Assembly: GCA_030725745.1 (NCBI GenBank)
Contig: JANRFH010000041.1
Span: 1 to 64,000, forward strand
Source of the DNA: Akkermansiaceae bacterium
GTDB lineage: Bacteria; Verrucomicrobiota; Verrucomicrobiia; Verrucomicrobiales; Akkermansiaceae
DNA length: 64,000 bases
Direction of reading: 5' to 3'
How positions within the stretch are numbered: the first letter of the stretch is position 1; each line of letters opens with the position of its first letter. Below the pieces are notes generated by a model, which was given only the letters and a program-made list of their open reading frames with translations, was not told where the DNA came from and did no database searches. The position numbers and the translations under genes were made by a program. Below are positions 47,758-56,383 of this stretch, piece by piece.

Positions 47758-49431
47758 ATGAGCCAATCCCCACTCCGCATCGCTGTCGGCGCCGATCATG
47801 GCGCTTTTGAAATGAAAAACGCCATCGTCGCCCACCTCCGTGGGGCTGGCTACGAAGTCGAGAATTTCGGCACCAACACCCCGGATTCCGTTGACTATCC
47901 CGATTTCGCGAACGCCGTCGCCCGCAACGTCGCCGATGGCACCTTCGATTTCGGCATCCTCGCCTGCACCTCTGGCGTCGGCATGTGCATCGCTGCGAAC
48001 CGCTACATTCATGTCCGCGGCGCGAACGTCCGCGATGTGGAGGAAACCGTCACCACCCGCCTGCATAACGACTCAAACGTCCTTTGCCTGAGCGGTAAAG
48101 CCATCGACTTGGAAACAGCCAAGGAAATGGCCATCGCCTTCGTCACTACGGAATTCGAAGGCGGCCGCCACCAGCGCCGCGTCTGCAAATCTTCCGGCAG
48201 CCACATCGCCGTTTCCGATCCGGAAATCTACGAAGCCATGGTCGGCGAGGAGCACCGCCAGCGGAACCACATCGAGCTCATCGCCTCGGAAAACTTCGCC
48301 TCCCCTGCCGTCATGGAAGCGCAAGGCTCCCTCCTTACCAACAAATACGCCGAAGGTTATCCCGGACGACGTTGGTATGGTGGCTGCGAATACGTCGATG
48401 TCGTCGAAACCCTCGCCATCGAGCGTGCGAAAGAACTTTTCGGAGCCGATCACGCCAACGTCCAGCCGCACTCCGGCTCACAGGCAAACACCGCCGTTTA
48501 TTTCTCCGTGCTCAAGCCCGGTGACAAAATTTTCACCATGGATCTCGCCCACGGCGGCCACCTCACCCACGGCCACAAAGCGAACTTCTCCGGCCGTTTC
48601 TATGATGTCACCCACTATGGAGTCTCCCCAGATGATGAGCGCATCGACTACGCGGAGCTGGAAAAAACCGCCCGCGAGCTGAAGCCAGCCCTCATCACCG
48701 TCGGCGCATCCGCTTACTCACGCATCATCGATTTCGAGCGCATGGGCAAGCTCGCCCGCGAAGTCGGCGCCTACCTCTTCGTCGATATGGCGCACATCGC
48801 CGGCCTCGTTGCAGCGGGTGTCCATCCGTCGCCAGTCCCGCACGCGGATTTCGTCACTTCCACCACTCACAAATCCCTGCGTGGTCCACGCGGCGGCATC
48901 ATCCTGTGCAAAGCGGAGTTCGCGAAGAAAATCGACTCCCAGGTCTTTCCCGGCATCCAGGGCGGCCCGCTCATGCATGTCATCGCCGCGAAAGCCGTCT
49001 GCTTTGGTGAGGCACTCAAGCCCGGCTTCAAGGAATACCAAGAGCAGGTCGTCAAGAACGCCCAGGCCATCGCCGCGCGCCTTACTCACCACGGCTTCCG
49101 CATCTGCTCGGATGGCACGGACAACCACGTCATGCTCGTCGATCTCCGCCCGAAAGGCCTCAACGGTTCCGAGGCGTCACTCGCCCTCGATGAAGCCGGC
49201 ATCACCGTCAACAAAAACGGCATCCCCTTCGACACCGGCAGCCCGATGAAACCCTCCGGCATCCGCATTGGCACCCCAGCCATCACCACACGCGGGATGA
49301 AAGAGAAAGACGTCGAGCAAGTCGCCGACTTCATCGCCGAAGCCCTCGCGGATCACACCAACGAGGAAAAACTCCACGCTATCCGCGACAAGGTCTTCGC
49401 CTTCAACCGGGCGTTTCCGTTGCCTTGGTAA
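47758..49431 (+). CDS. rpiB-glyA: Fused ribose-5-phosphate isomerase B and serine hydroxymethyltransferase
   Basis: A single 557-residue protein with two full enzyme domains. Residues about 5-145 are RpiB-like: GADHGAF (Asp13, His14), ILACTSGVG (Cys70), RLHNDSNVL (His103) and EGGRHQRR (Arg137, His138). Residues about 150-557 are [28 protein letters not shown], and [13 protein letters not shown] with the PLP lysine at Lys372. No stop or frameshift separates them, and the linker is only a few residues. RpiB interconverts ribose and ribulose 5-phosphates; SHMT supplies glycine and one-carbon units, both feeding nucleotide synthesis. A hairpin terminator follows. Confidence 0.95.
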
Positions 49432-49761: not shown

Positions 49762-50043
49762 GTGATCGAGAATTTCAATTGCAAGGAAACCTCAAAGATC
49801 TTTGCTGGCCAGCACTCTCGGAAAATCCCGGGAGATATTCAGCCGAGGGCACTTATGAAACTTCGCCAGCTTCATAAAATCGTCTCCATCGATCAACTCC
49901 GCGCTCCGCCTTCCAACCGTCTCGAATCGCTCTCCGGAAATCTCAACGGATTCTGGAGTATCCGCATTAACCAACAATGGCGCGTCATTTTCCGTTGGAA
50001 TGGCAGCAACGCCTCCGATGTCCAGATTACCGATTATCACTGA
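49762..50043 (+). CDS. higB: HigB-type toxin
   Basis: A 93-residue RelE-superfamily protein of the HigB group, from a GTG start. IPGDIQPRALMKLRQLHKI, the SLSGNLNGFWSIRINQQWRVIFRW stretch, and a C-terminal VQITDYH are diagnostic. HigB toxins cleave mRNA on the ribosome. The toxin gene precedes the antitoxin gene, as is normal for higBA and opposite to the other two modules here. The foldback repeat lies directly upstream. Confidence 0.92.
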   Translation: MIENFNCKETSKIFAGQHSRKIPGDIQPRALMKLRQLHKIVSIDQLRAPPSNRLESLSGNLNGFWSIRINQQWRVIFRWNGSNASDVQITDYH

Positions 50044-50052
50044 ACCTCTGTC

Positions 50053-50358
50053 ATGAAAAAGAAACCGAAACTAATTCCACTTCTCAATTTCTTTGCGGAA
50101 ACCCTGCGCGAAACCCTTGAGGATTCCGATCTTTCTCAAGCTGAAATTGCCCGTCGCTGCGGAATCCCAGCACCCCATCTCACACAGATGAAACAGGGTA
50201 AGCGCCGTTGTACGCCGGAATACGATCTCCGTATGAGTGCTTTTTTTGGCATAACACCCGGCATGTGGATGAATCTCCAGCTCGACTACGAGCTCATGCG
50301 CACCGAGCGCGAGAAGGGCGAAGCCATCCGCAAAGAAGTCCAGCCCTCCGCGGCTTGA
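50053..50358 (+). CDS. higA: HigA-type antitoxin
   Basis: A 101-residue antitoxin with an XRE-type helix-turn-helix at about 24-60 (LSQAEIARRCGIPAPHLTQMKQGKR), followed by FFGITPGMWMNLQLDYEL, a typical HigA end. It binds HigB and usually represses the higBA promoter. It begins nine bases after the toxin stop. The downstream HDO gene starts 28 bases later, so read-through from this module into the lipid-type operon is possible. Confidence 0.92.
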   Translation: MKKKPKLIPLLNFFAETLRETLEDSDLSQAEIARRCGIPAPHLTQMKQGKRRCTPEYDLRMSAFFGITPGMWMNLQLDYELMRTEREKGEAIRKEVQPSAA

Positions 50359-50386: not shown

Positions 50387-51073
50387 ATGACTCTCACCAA
50401 AACTGAGACCTCTGCCATCGGTTTGCTTTCCGCTGCGCCCATCCTCAGCAATGGCTATTTCCGCGCGCTTACAGGTGGAAGCATGGCCAAGGCGGATTTC
50501 GTGAGGTCGCAGGTGCAGTTCTTTTACGCCGTAGGATTTTTTTCCCGAAACCTTGCGACCCTTGCCGCGCGTCTCCCCACTTCTGCGGGGCGTGCGGTGC
50601 TGGTGCACAATTTGTCGGAAGAGCACGGGCTTGATGAAGACAATCCTTCGGAAGGCTTCCGACCGCAGCTCGCGCATGACCAGACATTCACTAGATTTCT
50701 GGAAACTCTCGGTGTGGAGAATTTGTCGGAATGCAATGCTGAGCCGCCAGTGCAGGCGTTCAACCTTGCTCTCATGGGCGCGTGCGCTTCTGAATCGCCC
50801 GGCTTCGCTTTGGCCGCGCTGGGCATGATCGAATATGCCTTCGCGGACATCAGTGCGCTGATCGGGGAGCGGGTGGTGGAGCTGGGTTGGGTGAAATCCG
50901 ATGAACTTGTGCATTACAGCCTCCATGCGGAAATCGACAAACGCCATGCTGCCGAGCTTTTTGAAGCTGCGGAGGATACGGGTGAGGCGGAGGCCTCCTT
51001 GCTTGGCGGGCTGGCCTTCGGGCGTTATATATTCGACCGCTTATATATGGATTTCAATCAAACGGTGAAATGA
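50387..51073 (+). CDS. Haem-oxygenase-like diiron oxidase/oxygenase (HDO) family protein
   Basis: A 228-residue all-helical protein of the Haem_oxygenas_2/HDO group. Likely iron ligands can be read: Glu78 or Glu79 (NLSEEHG), His97 (LAHDQTF), Glu149 (GMIEYAF), His176 or His180, Asp184 and His187 in HAEIDKRH. The E-H-E-H-D-H order is that of HDO enzymes such as UndA, SznF and BesC, which oxidise fatty acids, amines or amino acids with O2. The substrate is unknown. Its TGA overlaps the desaturase ATG in ATGA. It is the first gene of the operon. Confidence 0.82.
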   Translation: MTLTKTETSAIGLLSAAPILSNGYFRALTGGSMAKADFVRSQVQFFYAVGFFSRNLATLAARLPTSAGRAVLVHNLSEEHGLDEDNPSEGFRPQLAHDQTFTRFLETLGVENLSECNAEPPVQAFNLALMGACASESPGFALAALGMIEYAFADISALIGERVVELGWVKSDELVHYSLHAEIDKRHAAELFEAAEDTGEAEASLLGGLAFGRYIFDRLYMDFNQTVK

Positions 51074-51990
51074 CAGAAACCGTAAAACCGCGCTTAGATG
51101 CCGATTCCATGCGATCACTGCACCAGCTTTCGCATGCGTCCACGGCCCTGAGATTTGTGGCCTTCCTCTGCCTCTACTTTATCGGTGCAGTTGCTGCGGT
51201 ATTCCTTGCGGGGAAATTCGGATGGGCGGCCTCCATACCATTCTGGATACTTGCCGGAGCCTCGCTGCATGGGATCAGCCTCTTCACCCACGAGGCGGTG
51301 CATGGGACGCTGGCGAAAAACAAGGTGATCAATGCCTGTCTCGGAGCAGTCTGCGCGTGGCCAGTGCTGCAGAATTTCTCCGCCTACAAAGTCCTCCACC
51401 TCGCACACCACGCGGATCTCGGTGGCGAGCACGATCCCGATCATTATGAGAACTACACGCGCTGGACATGGGGAGTTTTCACCCTGAACTGGCTGCGCCT
51501 GCTCATCGGCTACCCAGTCTATATCACCGCCATTCCCGTTCTCGGCTGGAAGCATGGCTCGTGGAAAGAGCGCGGATGCATCGCGGTGGAATGCGCCTGC
51601 TGCGTGGTGCTTGCGGTGATCGTTTGGAAAATTTTCCCCATATCATGGCTGCTCCATGCGTGGCTAGGGCCCATGCTTTTCATCAATACCATGGTGAACA
51701 TACGTGGCATGAGCCAACACACGCTTCTCGAGCACTCCGACGATGAAATCCTAGGCACCCGCAGCATCCTGACCGGGCCGGTGGTGCGGTTTTTCATGTG
51801 CAATGAGAACTACCACCTCGAGCACCATCTCTACCCAGGCATTCCTTGGTATAGGCTGAAAACGGCGCACCACATTCTTGCTCCGGAGCTCCGCGAGCGA
51901 GGCGCACCTTTCATCACATCCTACACATCCTTCGTGCGAGAATTCATTCGTCACAGTTTTCAGCGCGGCCCATGGAGGCGTAGTTCGTGA
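51070..51990 (+). CDS. Membrane fatty acid desaturase/hydroxylase family protein
   Basis: A 306-residue membrane diiron protein. Histidine boxes are HEAVH (74-78), HLAHH (110-114) and HLEHH (249-253) in NENYHLEHHLYPGIPWY. A further His217 precedes box 3. Four membrane segments flank the boxes. The box spacing differs from the delta-9 protein at 9612-10733 and fits the acyl-lipid desaturase/hydroxylase/carotenoid-type superfamily, so desaturation and hydroxylation are both possible. It is coupled on both sides by overlaps (ATGA upstream, TGATG or GTGATG downstream). Confidence 0.85.
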   Translation: MTETVKPRLDADSMRSLHQLSHASTALRFVAFLCLYFIGAVAAVFLAGKFGWAASIPFWILAGASLHGISLFTHEAVHGTLAKNKVINACLGAVCAWPVLQNFSAYKVLHLAHHADLGGEHDPDHYENYTRWTWGVFTLNWLRLLIGYPVYITAIPVLGWKHGSWKERGCIAVECACCVVLAVIVWKIFPISWLLHAWLGPMLFINTMVNIRGMSQHTLLEHSDDEILGTRSILTGPVVRFFMCNENYHLEHHLYPGIPWYRLKTAHHILAPELRERGAPFITSYTSFVREFIRHSFQRGPWRRSS

Positions 51991-53072
51991 TGGCACCGGA
52001 TGATTGGGCAATGGAGGCAGCAGGGTTGCCGCTGGCCTTCTCGCAGGTGCGCGAGGATCCGAGGCTAGATCTGGAGATCGCAAAGCGCCTGCCTGCGGGT
52101 GCCAAGGTGATGATGGTAGCCTCTGGTGGAGAAACCGCCGTCTGCCTCGCGCGTCTGCCGCTCGCACAGCTGTCTCTCGTTGATATCAATCCTGCACAGC
52201 TAGCCCTTACGCGTTGCAAGTTTTACCTCGCGAGCCATGTGGGCGAAGAGGAAAGCTTGGCTCTACTTGGTCACTCCGCCATGCCCTCAGATGTGCGTGG
52301 GAAAAAATGGGAGGCCATTTTTCGCGACCTCGGCCTAGCAGATGACGTGCTCGCGGAGCCCTCGCTCATAGCCGCTCTCGGCCCCGATCACTGCGGGCGC
52401 TATGAAATGGCATTTGCGGAGCTGCGTCGCATTCTTGCACCGCAGAAGGATGAAATATCACAGTTTCTCCGCGCTACAGACGCAGCCAGCGCGTCAGCAA
52501 TGATCGCGGCCGAGACTAAGATGGGCACCGCTCTCGATACCGCCTTTGCCTCCGCGCTACGCTTGGAAAACCTGATCGCACTTTTCGGCGAGGGTGCCAC
52601 CCACAATCCTCGCCGACCCTTCCACAGTCATTTCATCGCCCAGCTACGCGACATCACCGCACGTCAGCCACCTTCGGAAAACCCATGGATCTGGCAAATC
52701 CTTGAGGGAAATTTCCCCCCATCCACTCTGCCGGACTGGCTGCAAGGACACGCGCCCATCATCACCCAACCAGAATACATTCACTCCACGATGATGGAGG
52801 CGCTCGCAGCGACTCCACAGGCATCCATGGACTTCATCCACCTCTCCAACATTCTCGACTGGCTCCCGCAAGAAGAAGCAAAGGCAACGCTTGCCGCCGC
52901 GCACCGCGTCCTCAGGCAGGGCGGATACCTCATCATCCGCCAGCTCAATTCCAGTCTCGAAATCCCATCGCTATTCCCATCTCTGAAATGGCAGCCGAAG
53001 GAAGCTCACCGTCTCCAGCTCGCAGACCGGAGCTTTTTCTACCCTGAAATCTTGCTCGCCACACGGTCATGA
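51987..53072 (+). CDS. BtaA-like DUF3419 aminocarboxypropyl transferase
   Basis: A 361-residue protein (GTG start at 51987, or ATG one codon later) that resembles BtaA: FSQVREDPRLD at 18-28, the SAM-site phrase MVASGGE at 43-49, DINPAQL at 66-72, and a late HLSNILDWL with a methyltransferase-like RQGGYLIIRQL end. BtaA moves the 3-amino-3-carboxypropyl group of SAM to diacylglycerol to give a homoserine-ether betaine-lipid precursor. This protein is somewhat shorter than BtaA, and no btaB-type N-methyltransferase is adjacent. The substrate may therefore differ. It overlaps the next gene by four bases. Confidence 0.82.
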   Translation: MMAPDDWAMEAAGLPLAFSQVREDPRLDLEIAKRLPAGAKVMMVASGGETAVCLARLPLAQLSLVDINPAQLALTRCKFYLASHVGEEESLALLGHSAMPSDVRGKKWEAIFRDLGLADDVLAEPSLIAALGPDHCGRYEMAFAELRRILAPQKDEISQFLRATDAASASAMIAAETKMGTALDTAFASALRLENLIALFGEGATHNPRRPFHSHFIAQLRDITARQPPSENPWIWQILEGNFPPSTLPDWLQGHAPIITQPEYIHSTMMEALAATPQASMDFIHLSNILDWLPQEEAKATLAAAHRVLRQGGYLIIRQLNSSLEIPSLFPSLKWQPKEAHRLQLADRSFFYPEILLATRS

Positions 53073-53977
53073 AAATCCACCGGATTACCGACACGCCACC
53101 GCTTGACCTTGCTCCGAAGCTTGCGGATTTTGAAAAGGAATTCATCTACCCGCTAGGCTCATCCGCTTCGTTCACGATCTCGCATGGCGCTGACTACTCG
53201 CTTTTTTTCCGGGGTATGGGAAAGGCCTGTGTTTATCTTGCGGAAACATCAGGCGAAATCGTCGGCGCACAGGCCGTGGTAGAGCGGTCGGTCTCGCTGG
53301 CAGATGGAGGCGAGATCCCGGCATCATATTTCTGTGATACCAAAATTGTTTCACGAATGCGCGGCAGGATGGTTCTGGGTAGGCTGGCAATGGCCGCTTG
53401 CAAGGACACCCTGGCAGCGGGAATCAACGCAGGATTCTCCGTGGTCATGGATGGCTCGAAAACCACCGATCAGCACACCGGCAGGCTGGGCATCCCGCAA
53501 TTCGATGAACTCGCGAGGCTTGTGATCCTGCGTTTTGATACCGCCGCTGAATTCAAGGGGTTTCCCATAGATGCGACTCGCACAATCGGAAATTGGCACC
53601 GCCCGCACGGGGGAGACCCAGCAATCAGCTCGGAAATGGAACCGCGCGAACTGGCGGTGAACGGAGCCAGTGGTCTTCTGGTGGATACGCGGCGTGGGAA
53701 GCGTTTGTGGAAATCCGATGGCACCGAGATGGTCTCTGCACACCTCACCTCTCTGGAATTTTCCTCAGTCAGCGCACTATCATTATTGGTTCAGGATGCC
53801 TTGGAAGTGTCACATGAAATGGAGATACCGGGGCTTTTTCTTGCGCTGCCTGAGAAGACCTTAGCCGACGAAGCCCTAGCGAAAGCGGTAGCTGGCTGCG
53901 CCACGATCGCAGGAGCCACAATTTTCGGAACCGGCCTGCCCGAAGGCGATTGGATGATCAATACCTCGGAGATTTGA
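53069..53977 (+). CDS. GNAT-like protein of the lipid-type operon
   Basis: A 302-residue protein I cannot assign confidently. Its N-terminal half has an acetyltransferase look: VYLAETSGEIVGAQAVV, then CDTKIVSRMRGRMVLGRLAMAA, similar to the acyl-CoA-binding motif A of GNAT enzymes. The C-terminal half (after about 170) has no clear family. In context it could acylate the amino group made by the BtaA-like enzyme, but this is inference. It is the last of the four coupled genes, followed by a perfect inverted repeat nine bases after the stop. Confidence 0.62.
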   Translation: MKIHRITDTPPLDLAPKLADFEKEFIYPLGSSASFTISHGADYSLFFRGMGKACVYLAETSGEIVGAQAVVERSVSLADGGEIPASYFCDTKIVSRMRGRMVLGRLAMAACKDTLAAGINAGFSVVMDGSKTTDQHTGRLGIPQFDELARLVILRFDTAAEFKGFPIDATRTIGNWHRPHGGDPAISSEMEPRELAVNGASGLLVDTRRGKRLWKSDGTEMVSAHLTSLEFSSVSALSLLVQDALEVSHEMEIPGLFLALPEKTLADEALAKAVAGCATIAGATIFGTGLPEGDWMINTSEI

Positions 53978-53985
53978 TGGAGAAA

Positions 53986-54078
53986 GGAACCGCGATTCCG
54001 AAATCGCGACCTGCATCGGAATTGGCAACACCGGCAGGAGCTTCGCCGTGCGAGTCGCGATTTCGGAATCGCGGTTCC
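53986..54078. repeat. Perfect 25-base inverted repeat (REPIN-like)
   Basis: A 25-base arm at 53986-54010 beginning GGAACCGCGATTCCG is exactly inverted at 54054-54078 around a 43-base centre. Each arm contains a short internal palindrome. The layout of two inverted REP-like units fits a REPIN. A decayed single unit lies at 4097-4123. It sits between the two lipid-type operons and may terminate or stabilise the upstream transcript. Confidence 0.82.
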
Positions 54079-54151: not shown

Positions 54152-54604
54152 ATGAAACTAGAACCAACCGAAAGAATAGAAGTCTACTACGATGGGCGCT
54201 GTGGGATGTGTTGCAGCTTCCATGAGTGGATCAACAGGCAAGCACGAGCCTTCCAAATTGATTTCATCCCCTATCAGGCGGCGCACGCTGAGCAGAGATT
54301 TCCCGGTCTGGGGACGCTGGATCCGGCTCGCGAAATGATTGTGAGGACAACGGAGGGTGAAGTTTTCAGAGGCGCGGAGGCTTGGGTCTGGTGTCTGTAT
54401 AGTTGCCGGAATTTTCAAACGACGGCACGCAGGTTGGCGGGGCCGGGGTTACTACCCGTGGCGGTGCAGGCTTGCCGTGTGCTTGCTGCGAATCGTCATG
54501 CAATCAGCAAGGTTTTCTTTAGGAGGAAGGACAAGATTGTGAGGGATGAGCTTCACCACATGGATGCGGCGGACTGCGAGGGTGAGTTTTGTGTGGTGAA
54601 ATGA
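54152..54604 (+). CDS. DCC-family (DUF393) thiol-disulfide oxidoreductase-like protein
   Basis: A 150-residue protein with the DCC start IEVYYDGRCGMCC (Asp14, Cys17, Cys20, with an extra Cys21). The family is related to thioredoxin-like proteins and named for the conserved Asp and Cys pair. FIPYQAAHAEQRFPGL and the FRGAEAW stretch fit the family, and the end is rich in charge. The reaction is unknown; members often lie beside membrane proteins. It begins the second four-gene operon, overlapping the next gene if that starts at 54601. Confidence 0.85.
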   Translation: MKLEPTERIEVYYDGRCGMCCSFHEWINRQARAFQIDFIPYQAAHAEQRFPGLGTLDPAREMIVRTTEGEVFRGAEAWVWCLYSCRNFQTTARRLAGPGLLPVAVQACRVLAANRHAISKVFFRRKDKIVRDELHHMDAADCEGEFCVVK

Positions 54605-55032
54605 GATCAAACGGAAAACCTAAAATCATGAGCACATTCACATTGGAACTCGCACTACGATTCGCAGGAATGATCCTGACCGGCTTGGTGCTGGCAAATT
54701 TTGTCGCGGCGAAGAGGTGGCGGTATGCGGAGAATCTTGCAGGTTCTACAGTGATCGTACGGCAGGTATTTTATGTCCACTGCGCTTACATCGTAGTCAT
54801 CATTGCGGCTCTTGCACTGCTATGTCTGGGCTGGCCGGGATTGCTTTTAAAGGGAGAGATGAGCCGAGTTCTATGTGTTTTCTTCGCCCTTTTCTGGGGA
54901 AGTCGGGTGGTGGTGCAGCTCACCTACTATGATCGCGAGTTGCGCCGCGCAGACCGTGGGTGGGACATCTTTTTCCTCGGGGTCTTTCTGGTGCTGAGCG
55001 CCGTTTTCACTCTAGCTGCTGTCTTCCAATGA
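54601..55032 (+). CDS. Four-helix membrane protein A (tandem paralogue)
   Basis: A 143-residue protein with four predicted membrane segments. The ATG at 54601 overlaps the DCC stop (ATGA); an internal ATG at 54628 is an alternative. The stretch from FYVHCAYIVVI through FFALFWGSRVVVQLTYYDREL aligns with the next protein by shared aromatic, Trp-Arg and Asp positions, so the two arose by tandem duplication. No known family was recognised. Its position between DCC and MBOAT genes suggests a membrane complex. Confidence 0.75.
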   Translation: MRSNGKPKIMSTFTLELALRFAGMILTGLVLANFVAAKRWRYAENLAGSTVIVRQVFYVHCAYIVVIIAALALLCLGWPGLLLKGEMSRVLCVFFALFWGSRVVVQLTYYDRELRRADRGWDIFFLGVFLVLSAVFTLAAVFQ

Positions 55033-55472
55033 GAGAATTATTAGAAATCGGACTGCTAATCGGTGGCTATTCGCTTGTAGCACTGTGCATTGGGAGCTTC
55101 TGGATTCCCAAAGCTCTCGGCTGGCGTGAAAAGCTCGCCGGTCTTAGTCCACTGATGCGTGAGCTGTGGTGGACTTACTCGATCTACGTGTGGAGCAGTC
55201 ATGTGTTTTTTGCGGTCTTGGCACTTGGCTTCGGTGATTGGCTGATGGGCGGGACGGGGTCGGCGAAAGCGATGTGCACGTTTATCTTACTCTGGTGGTC
55301 GGTGCGGCTGTATCTTCAGTTTTTTGGGTTCGATCTGAGTGAGGTAGAGGGGACGATGAGTAATAAAGTGGGCAAGCATTTGCTGACTCTTCTCTTCGTG
55401 GGCTTGGTTGTTCTCTTCGCAGGCTTGCTCTGCTGGAATACCGGGCTGATAGGGGCAGGAGGCTTGAGATGA
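55029..55472 (+). CDS. Four-helix membrane protein B (tandem paralogue)
   Basis: A 147-residue protein with four membrane segments, starting MRELLEIGLL at an ATG that overlaps the preceding stop (ATGA). LWWTYSIYVWSSHVFFAVLAL and CTFILLWWSVRLYLQFFGFDL mirror the corresponding helices of the preceding protein, with conserved W/Y-rich starts, an Arg in helix 3 or 4, and an Asp after it. Its stop overlaps the MBOAT start. Function unknown. Confidence 0.75.
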   Translation: MRELLEIGLLIGGYSLVALCIGSFWIPKALGWREKLAGLSPLMRELWWTYSIYVWSSHVFFAVLALGFGDWLMGGTGSAKAMCTFILLWWSVRLYLQFFGFDLSEVEGTMSNKVGKHLLTLLFVGLVVLFAGLLCWNTGLIGAGGLR

Positions 55473-56383
55473 TATGGATCGTCATTTCATTGGTGCTTTT
55501 AGGGATCGTCGCCGGGCGGCTTTTGGCAAACCTTAGGCCTCTGTGGTTAAAGAGGCTAATGGGTTGGCTCCTGCTTGGCGCGATAGTTGTGGGCGCGGAT
55601 TTTACTCTCGCCGCAGTGGAGCCATTGTGGCGGATGGTGGGGATCTGCTGCGTGCTTCTCGGCGGGATGAAGGGCTTGGTTTATGCAGAGTGGGCAGGGC
55701 TGCATAAGCTCAGCTGGTTGCGTTACGGCGTGTTCTCCTTTCTGTGGTTCGGGATGGATGTGGGGAGTTTTCAAACGCGACGCGAGGGACTGAGCTGGAA
55801 AGGTGATGTGAAATTGGGGTTATTACTGATGCTCCTCGGCACGCTTGGCGCATGGCTAGTATGGGCGATGGAGTGGCGGCAGATCCTGATCATGTTCTTG
55901 CCGATGAGCTTGGGATTTCACTTCGGAGCCCTGCGTGTGCTGAAAGGTGGATTGCGCGCGAAGGGCTTTCCCGTGAGGACTCTTTTCCCAAATGTCCTAG
56001 CGACACAAGGGATAGGGGATTTCTGGAGCAGGCGCTGGAACGTCGGCTATTCGCAAATGATGCAACGCCTTGTCGGAAGGCCAGTGGAAAGATGGTTCGG
56101 AGCCAGCGCGGGAGCGATGGCGATCTTTGTTGGTTCCGGATTGCTGCATGAGCTTGCCATTACGCTTCCAGTCCGCGCTGGATACGGCCTGCCGACTCTG
56201 TATTTCACCGCACATGGTGTGCTGGTTCTTTTAGAAAAAAAGTGGGGACGATCGATTGGCAAAATACCCGCATTGCTCGCCGTGACCGTGCCGCTGGGAT
56301 TTCTCTTTCCGCCTGCGTTCCAGAGCGAAGTCATCGCAAAATGCCTCGGTGTATTCGAGATTTGGGCACCTCTCTCTCCTTGA
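55469..56383 (+). CDS. MBOAT/wax-synthase-like membrane acyltransferase
   Basis: A 304-residue protein with about eight membrane segments. The MBOAT_2/wax-synthase pattern is visible: DFWSRRWN at 184-191 and FVGSGLLHELAI with the predicted catalytic His227. The DVGSFQTRR stretch and the YFTAHGVLVLLE segment also fit. MBOAT enzymes transfer acyl groups to hydroxyls of lipids, proteins or glycans; plant-type wax synthases esterify alcohols. The acceptor is unknown. It is the last gene of the second coupled operon. Confidence 0.82.
   Translation: MIWIVISLVLLGIVAGRLLANLRPLWLKRLMGWLLLGAIVVGADFTLAAVEPLWRMVGICCVLLGGMKGLVYAEWAGLHKLSWLRYGVFSFLWFGMDVGSFQTRREGLSWKGDVKLGLLLMLLGTLGAWLVWAMEWRQILIMFLPMSLGFHFGALRVLKGGLRAKGFPVRTLFPNVLATQGIGDFWSRRWNVGYSQMMQRLVGRPVERWFGASAGAMAIFVGSGLLHELAITLPVRAGYGLPTLYFTAHGVLVLLEKKWGRSIGKIPALLAVTVPLGFLFPPAFQSEVIAKCLGVFEIWAPLSP

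Follow-up and report, generated by a model that had tools for sequence, protein, structure and literature searches.

We examined a 64,000-nucleotide stretch of the genome of an Akkermansiaceae bacterium (contig JANRFH010000041.1 of assembly GCA_030725745.1, positions 1 to 64,000; "the window" below), and describe here a four-gene operon at 50387-53977 on its plus strand. The four open reading frames (ORFs) are tightly packed, each of the three junctions being a 4-base overlap (ATGA, GTGA and ATGA), with the second shrinking to a 1-base overlap if the DUF3419 gene begins at the ATG at 51990 and not at the GTG at 51987. In order, they encode a heme-oxygenase-like diiron oxidase (HDO), a membrane desaturase/hydroxylase (DES), a DUF3419 protein that is a putative S-adenosylmethionine (SAM) 3-amino-3-carboxypropyl transferase (BTA), and a protein that we describe as N-myristoyltransferase (NMT)-like (Table 1). 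An original prediction, made from the letters of the window alone, had proposed an overlapping four-gene operon of these families; the layout is confirmed, and Pfam assigns the first three products to Haem_oxygenas_2, FA_desaturase and DUF3419, as had been expected. The fourth ORF gives a sub-threshold Pfam match (Acetyltransf_9, 17.5 bits against a cut-off of 25). We found no description of this combination of families in the open-access literature. The linkage of the genes, the folds of their products, the metal and SAM motifs and the C-terminal motif discussed below can be read directly from the sequences and models.

Table 1. Genes and predicted functional sites of the operon, in window coordinates.
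Feature	Span	Strand	Basis
HDO, heme-oxygenase-like diiron oxidase, CADD/BesC-like; core gene	50387..51073	+	Haem_oxygenas_2 2.8e-13; PDB profile matches CADD, BesC
Six predicted iron ligands of HDO (E79, H97, E149, H180, D184, H187)	50621..50947	+	Assigned from CADD alignment
DES, membrane desaturase/hydroxylase with three His boxes; accessory gene	51070..51990	+	FA_desaturase 2.2e-43
His boxes of DES: HEAVH (74-78), HLAHH (110-114), HLEHH (249-253)	51289..51828	+	Conserved in 39-41 homologues
BTA, DUF3419 protein, putative SAM 3-amino-3-carboxypropyl transferase; core gene	51987 (or 51990)..53072	+	DUF3419 2.5e-25
SAM-site motif of BTA, VMMVASGG (41-48) to VD (65-66)	52107..52184	+	Near-invariant in 71 homologues
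NMT-like N-acyltransferase (putative), double GNAT fold; core gene	53069..53977	+	AlphaFold2 model; Z 18.1 against human NMT1
C-terminal Thr-Ser-Glu-Ile and stop codon, predicted catalytic carboxylate	53963..53977	+	Homologue C-termini; coincides with NMT C-terminal residue

These genes recur together in many other genomes. We scanned 84,980 species genomes by an alignment-based search whose peptide patterns came from the DUF3419 protein alone. This yielded 72 BTA loci, in which partner genes were called by profile searches. An NMT-like gene was present in 69 of them, an HDO gene in 65, a DES gene in 42 and a gene for a PAP2_3 membrane enzyme in 18. Thirteen loci lie near contig ends, and among the 59 that are uncut the NMT-like gene was found in 57 and the HDO gene in 58. 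BLAST was also run against eleven related genomes that carry a cassette-type DUF3419 gene, a set that shares some contigs with the 72 loci. Nine of these genomes have all four genes together; in one of the remaining two no desaturase lies nearby, and in the other the locus is truncated by a contig end. Across 286 genomes of the class, seven strong NMT-like matches were obtained, and the genomes they come from are precisely the seven that carry a DUF3419 gene of the cassette type. The core of the cassette is formed by the DUF3419 protein, the GNAT-like (NMT-like) protein and HDO, and the desaturase is optional. The earlier view of the desaturase as an obligatory part was not borne out, since 30 of the 72 loci show none. 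Genes for PAP2_3 were seen solely alongside DES (18 of 42 loci with DES, 0 of 30 without; Fisher p = 1.2e-5).

Several gene orders were seen, including HDO-DES-BTA-GNAT, BTA-GNAT-HDO, GNAT-BTA-HDO and DES-HDO-BTA-GNAT, so the linkage survives rearrangement. The distances of the families also correlate with one another (Spearman 0.64-0.76, higher than in all 200 label shuffles). As a control, we inspected 20 other DUF3419 loci, comprising canonical BtaA and a third clade, and in none did a member of the four partner families lie within ~5 kb. We give next to no credence to the idea that the genes lie side by side by chance and belong to no common pathway: it is already refuted by the near-complete linkage of the uncut loci, maintained through reordering, set against the empty controls. 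The original prediction had staked its shared-pathway idea on the four genes not being rare neighbors elsewhere, and their adjacency turned out to be nearly universal.

Members of the cassette are distributed over at least nine phyla (Verrucomicrobiota, Planctomycetota, Pseudomonadota, Vulcanimicrobiota (Eremiobacterota), Chlamydiota, Dependentiae, Elusimicrobiota, Lentisphaerota and Cyanobacteria/Melainabacteria), many of them in metagenome bins, the species titles of which are not to be read literally. Given that phyla are intermixed in the DUF3419 tree, the cassette has apparently spread horizontally. A plasmid of Mycobacterium riyadhense (L155:8010-13671) carries BTA, HDO and NMT-like genes in that order, then an RND/MmpL family transporter gene, plus integrase genes. 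The Legionella worsleiensis locus (L123:6414-9871) has a gene resembling pyridoxal phosphate-dependent decarboxylases, then BTA, then an HDO frame that is apparently shortened at its N-terminus.

BTA, one of the core proteins, matches the DUF3419 domain at 89.9 bits (cut-off 28.2), and by sequence it is a DUF3419 protein that lies outside BtaA, in a sister clade. A maximum-likelihood tree resolves three groups, one each for the cassette proteins, for BtaA and for the third clade, all supported at 100/99. The neighborhoods differ as well: canonical BtaA genes had a methyltransferase-like ORF directly downstream in 5 of the 9 loci inspected (4 of these Pfam-confirmed), as expected for BtaB, whereas a BtaB methyltransferase is neither present in the operon nor recurrent beside the cassette in the 72 loci. 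On these two grounds, we rejected the identification of the protein as a true BtaA. For the original description of a BtaA-like transferase without a btaB-type partner, the DUF3419 assignment and the missing methyltransferase have both stood, but the protein falls outside the BtaA clade. BtaA uses SAM as its aminocarboxypropyl donor (PMC10491745), and BTA likely catalyzes aminocarboxypropyl transfer too, mainly by homology to BtaA. The SAM motif, of the pattern VxMxASGG...VD, is near-invariant among the 71 homologues aligned, and the model of BTA (predicted local distance difference test (pLDDT) score 93.8) has a methyltransferase-type core. The nocardicin aminocarboxypropyl transferase 8zhu ranks second among its Foldseek matches; this isonocardicin synthase, NAT, transfers the 3-amino-3-carboxypropyl group of SAM onto a small molecule (PMC10491745), but it has a beta-lactam substrate and belongs to a different gene cluster.

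A DUF3419 protein is common to the cassette and to the BtaA/BtaB synthesis of the betaine lipid diacylglyceryltrimethylhomoserine (DGTS), and the cassette might be a variant of that pathway, in which BTA would act on diacylglycerol as BtaA does and N-acylation would take the place of N-methylation by BtaB. The homology and the lack of a BtaB-like gene, where BtaA loci often have one, are in keeping with such a scheme. However, the BTA clade stands apart from BtaA with full support, the cassette has an N-acyltransferase and HDO instead of BtaB, and betaine-lipid synthesis has no counterpart of HDO. We regard the variant as rather unlikely, and note that it is a special case of the N-acylated amino amphiphile proposed below, with which its probability overlaps.

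The third DUF3419 clade (L156-L166, from Verrucomicrobia; for example L160:2712-7562 and L165:3395-8255) has another undescribed conserved neighborhood of its own. There, the DUF3419 gene is flanked by genes for a PPDK_N/phosphoenolpyruvate-utilizer protein of ~810-950 amino acids and for a cytidylyltransferase- or dolichol-kinase-like membrane protein of ~440 amino acids.

The N-myristoyltransferase family is known mainly from eukaryotes. The AlphaFold2 model of the fourth protein (pLDDT 88.0; predicted TM-score 0.87) matches NMTs at Z 17-18 across residues 1-302, its whole length, and the alignment to human NMT1 covers 262 residues with a root-mean-square deviation of 3.8. The final residue of the model superposes on the end of the NMT chain, such as residue 496 in human NMT1. 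Complete homologues across phyla, the Mycobacterium protein included, end in Glu, Asp or Gln followed by Ile (once Glu-Val) right before the stop codon. The cassette protein differs from NMT in its low identity of about 9%, in being bacterial and encoded in a biosynthetic operon, and in Pfam, where none of the 12 members scanned matched the NMT families. The general base of NMT is its C-terminal carboxylate, a feature that a review deems unique to that enzyme (PMC4964394). A catalytic role is predicted for the C-terminal carboxylate of the fourth protein too, and its place in the fold and the conservation of the motif are consistent with one. The mycobacterial acetyltransferase Eis has a related GNAT fold, and its C-terminal carboxyl takes part in catalysis via a water molecule (PMC8556138). 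Eis carries an extra C-terminal sterol-carrier domain, and it stands lower in the Foldseek list, with TM-scores of 0.47-0.50 compared with 0.55-0.62 for NMT. That the fourth protein acylates an amine is well supported by its model, and the proposal that a GNAT-like enzyme does so has gained strongly and become more specific, in the form of an NMT-like fold with a conserved C-terminal carboxylate.

The same fold and C-terminal motif would also suit an enzyme that acylates proteins or peptides, a bacterial N-myristoylation in which BTA and HDO would modify the same polypeptide. We consider this very improbable, as BTA and HDO resemble small-molecule enzymes, and the ORFs of at least 90-100 codons that flank the cassette included no conserved gene for a peptide or substrate; below that size limit a short peptide gene could be missed.

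The closest solved relatives of HDO in a PDB profile search are CADD, a p-aminobenzoate (pABA) synthase (3.7e-13), and BesC (2.9e-5), followed by UndA (0.05). All six iron ligands of the 3H/3C set, which HDO has in common with CADD and BesC, are kept in 64-66 of 66 homologues. In CADD, Tyr27 and Lys152 are self-sacrificed residues (PMC11965152), but the corresponding alignment positions of the cassette HDO hold Phe/Leu and Ile, and its score against TIGR04305 is 22.7 bits where the cut-off is 200. We rejected a role as a pABA synthase because the sacrificed residues are missing; without them, HDO would not be self-sacrificing by that chemistry and an external substrate is expected. In the five 3H/3C HDOs that have been solved with substrate bound, the substrate supplies ligands to one iron (PMC13108848).

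For DES, all ten members scanned matched the NCBIfam family GntB, an arginine hydroxylase. GntB is also the best match for the window DES, at 92.5 bits, far under the equivalog cut-off of 380. No solved structure shows a sequence relationship to DES at E 0.1. RtxC, the rhizobitoxine desaturase, desaturates a homoserine ether. The original prediction had suggested that the acyl chain is possibly oxidized; this is not supported, since HDO resembles enzymes that act on amino acids and DES is nearest to GntB.

These same affinities raise the possibility that the product is not a membrane lipid but a diffusible natural product, either an N-acyl amino acid or oxyvinylglycine-like, with BTA making a small homoserine ether or cyclizing SAM, and DES and HDO desaturating an amino-acid side chain. 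HDO is nearest to CADD and BesC, with UndA only at E 0.05, DES is nearest to GntB, and besides SAM and O2 the three-gene minimum would need just an acyl donor and a single common acceptor. Nonetheless, we think a diffusible product unlikely, if deserving of attention: the PAP2_3 genes of 18 loci and the MmpL gene in Mycobacterium point to a lipid, and the NMT fold suits long acyl chains. The PAP2_3 and MmpL neighbors thus favor a lipid product, which the original prediction had also named and which gains indirect support through them and the NMT fold.

We infer the reactions, their order, the acceptor, the acyl donor and the product from sequence and models, as follows. BTA would transfer the 3-amino-3-carboxypropyl group of SAM to the hydroxyl of an acceptor, and the resulting homoserine-ether head would bear a free amine. 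This amine would be acylated by the NMT-like protein, with fatty acyl-coenzyme A or acyl-acyl carrier protein as donor, and its deprotonation would be assisted by the C-terminal carboxylate of the enzyme itself. HDO, using O2 and its diiron site, would afterwards oxidize the amino-acid part by decarboxylation, desaturation or hydroxylation, and DES, where present, could carry out a second oxidation. In some hosts, PAP2_3 or MmpL-type neighbors might process or export the product. Apart from SAM and O2, the minimal core needs an acceptor and an acyl donor. We give an even chance to the general statement that this widely conserved cassette makes an N-acylated amino amphiphile from SAM. The fuller proposal is an undescribed class of bacterial lipid, an N-acyl homoserine-ether amphiphile that a diiron HDO oxidizes; its source would be a three-gene core that has spread horizontally and includes, as N-acyltransferase, a bacterial counterpart of eukaryotic N-myristoyltransferase. 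This fuller proposal we put forward tentatively, with somewhat less than even confidence. The earlier interpretation is therefore partly retained, in its linkage, its amine acylation and its lack of BtaB, and partly left unsupported, in diacylglycerol as the acceptor, the oxidized acyl chain and the obligatory desaturase.

Several observations weigh against the proposed pathway to an N-acylated amino amphiphile. The BTA model matches methyltransferase folds of a generic kind, with moderate Z values that reach 12.8, and its match to the nocardicin transferase has a low TM-score of about 0.2. Acetyltransf_9 is the sole Pfam signal of the NMT-like protein, and since Eis combines a related fold with a catalytic C-terminus, the acyl chain could be short. 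A PAP2_3 match was not found in the window genome, and in Legionella worsleiensis, which has BTA and HDO, an NMT-like gene was not found nearby.

Among known systems, the ornithine-lipid pathways OlsBA, OlsF and OlsHI, the last from planctomycetes (PMC12493201), likewise make N-acylated amino-acid membrane lipids, but they have neither a SAM-derived head group nor an HDO, and OlsH is a GH3-like enzyme. The HDO clade and the DUF3419 clade of the cassette were orphans until now; together with the bacterial NMT-like enzyme, they gain one shared context in at least nine phyla, which links three enzyme families not known to act together. If the proposed pathway is true, it would add a new class of amino amphiphile to bacterial envelopes, broaden the chemistry of aminocarboxypropyl transfer and bear on the origin of the N-myristoyltransferase fold.

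Other features of the window lie on either side of the operon. Upstream, a single ORF at 47758-49431 reads as an apparent fusion of an RpiB-like isomerase with serine hydroxymethyltransferase, and has a counterpart of 84% identity in L053. The proximity of HDO and serine hydroxymethyltransferase genes, seen in the window and in three sister genomes, was discounted as a sign of a pABA synthase, since the more distant cassettes compared did not show it. Between the fused gene and the operon, a HigB/HigA toxin-antitoxin pair at 49762-50358 is probably an insertion, since the spacing in the sister genomes L053, L054 and L056 leaves no room for it; the pair was dropped as a candidate part of the operon, not being recurrent beside the cassette in relatives. 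Downstream, a separate gene run at 54152-56383 encodes a DCC1-like protein, two small membrane proteins and an MBOAT_2 acyltransferase, and the DCC1 and MBOAT_2 genes, not found beside the cassette in relatives, were likewise set aside. Right after the operon, at 53991-54073, lies a long inverted repeat. With up to two mismatches allowed, its arm is found at 20 genomic sites and at none in a reversed control, indicating a dispersed element like the repetitive extragenic palindromic (REP) sequences.

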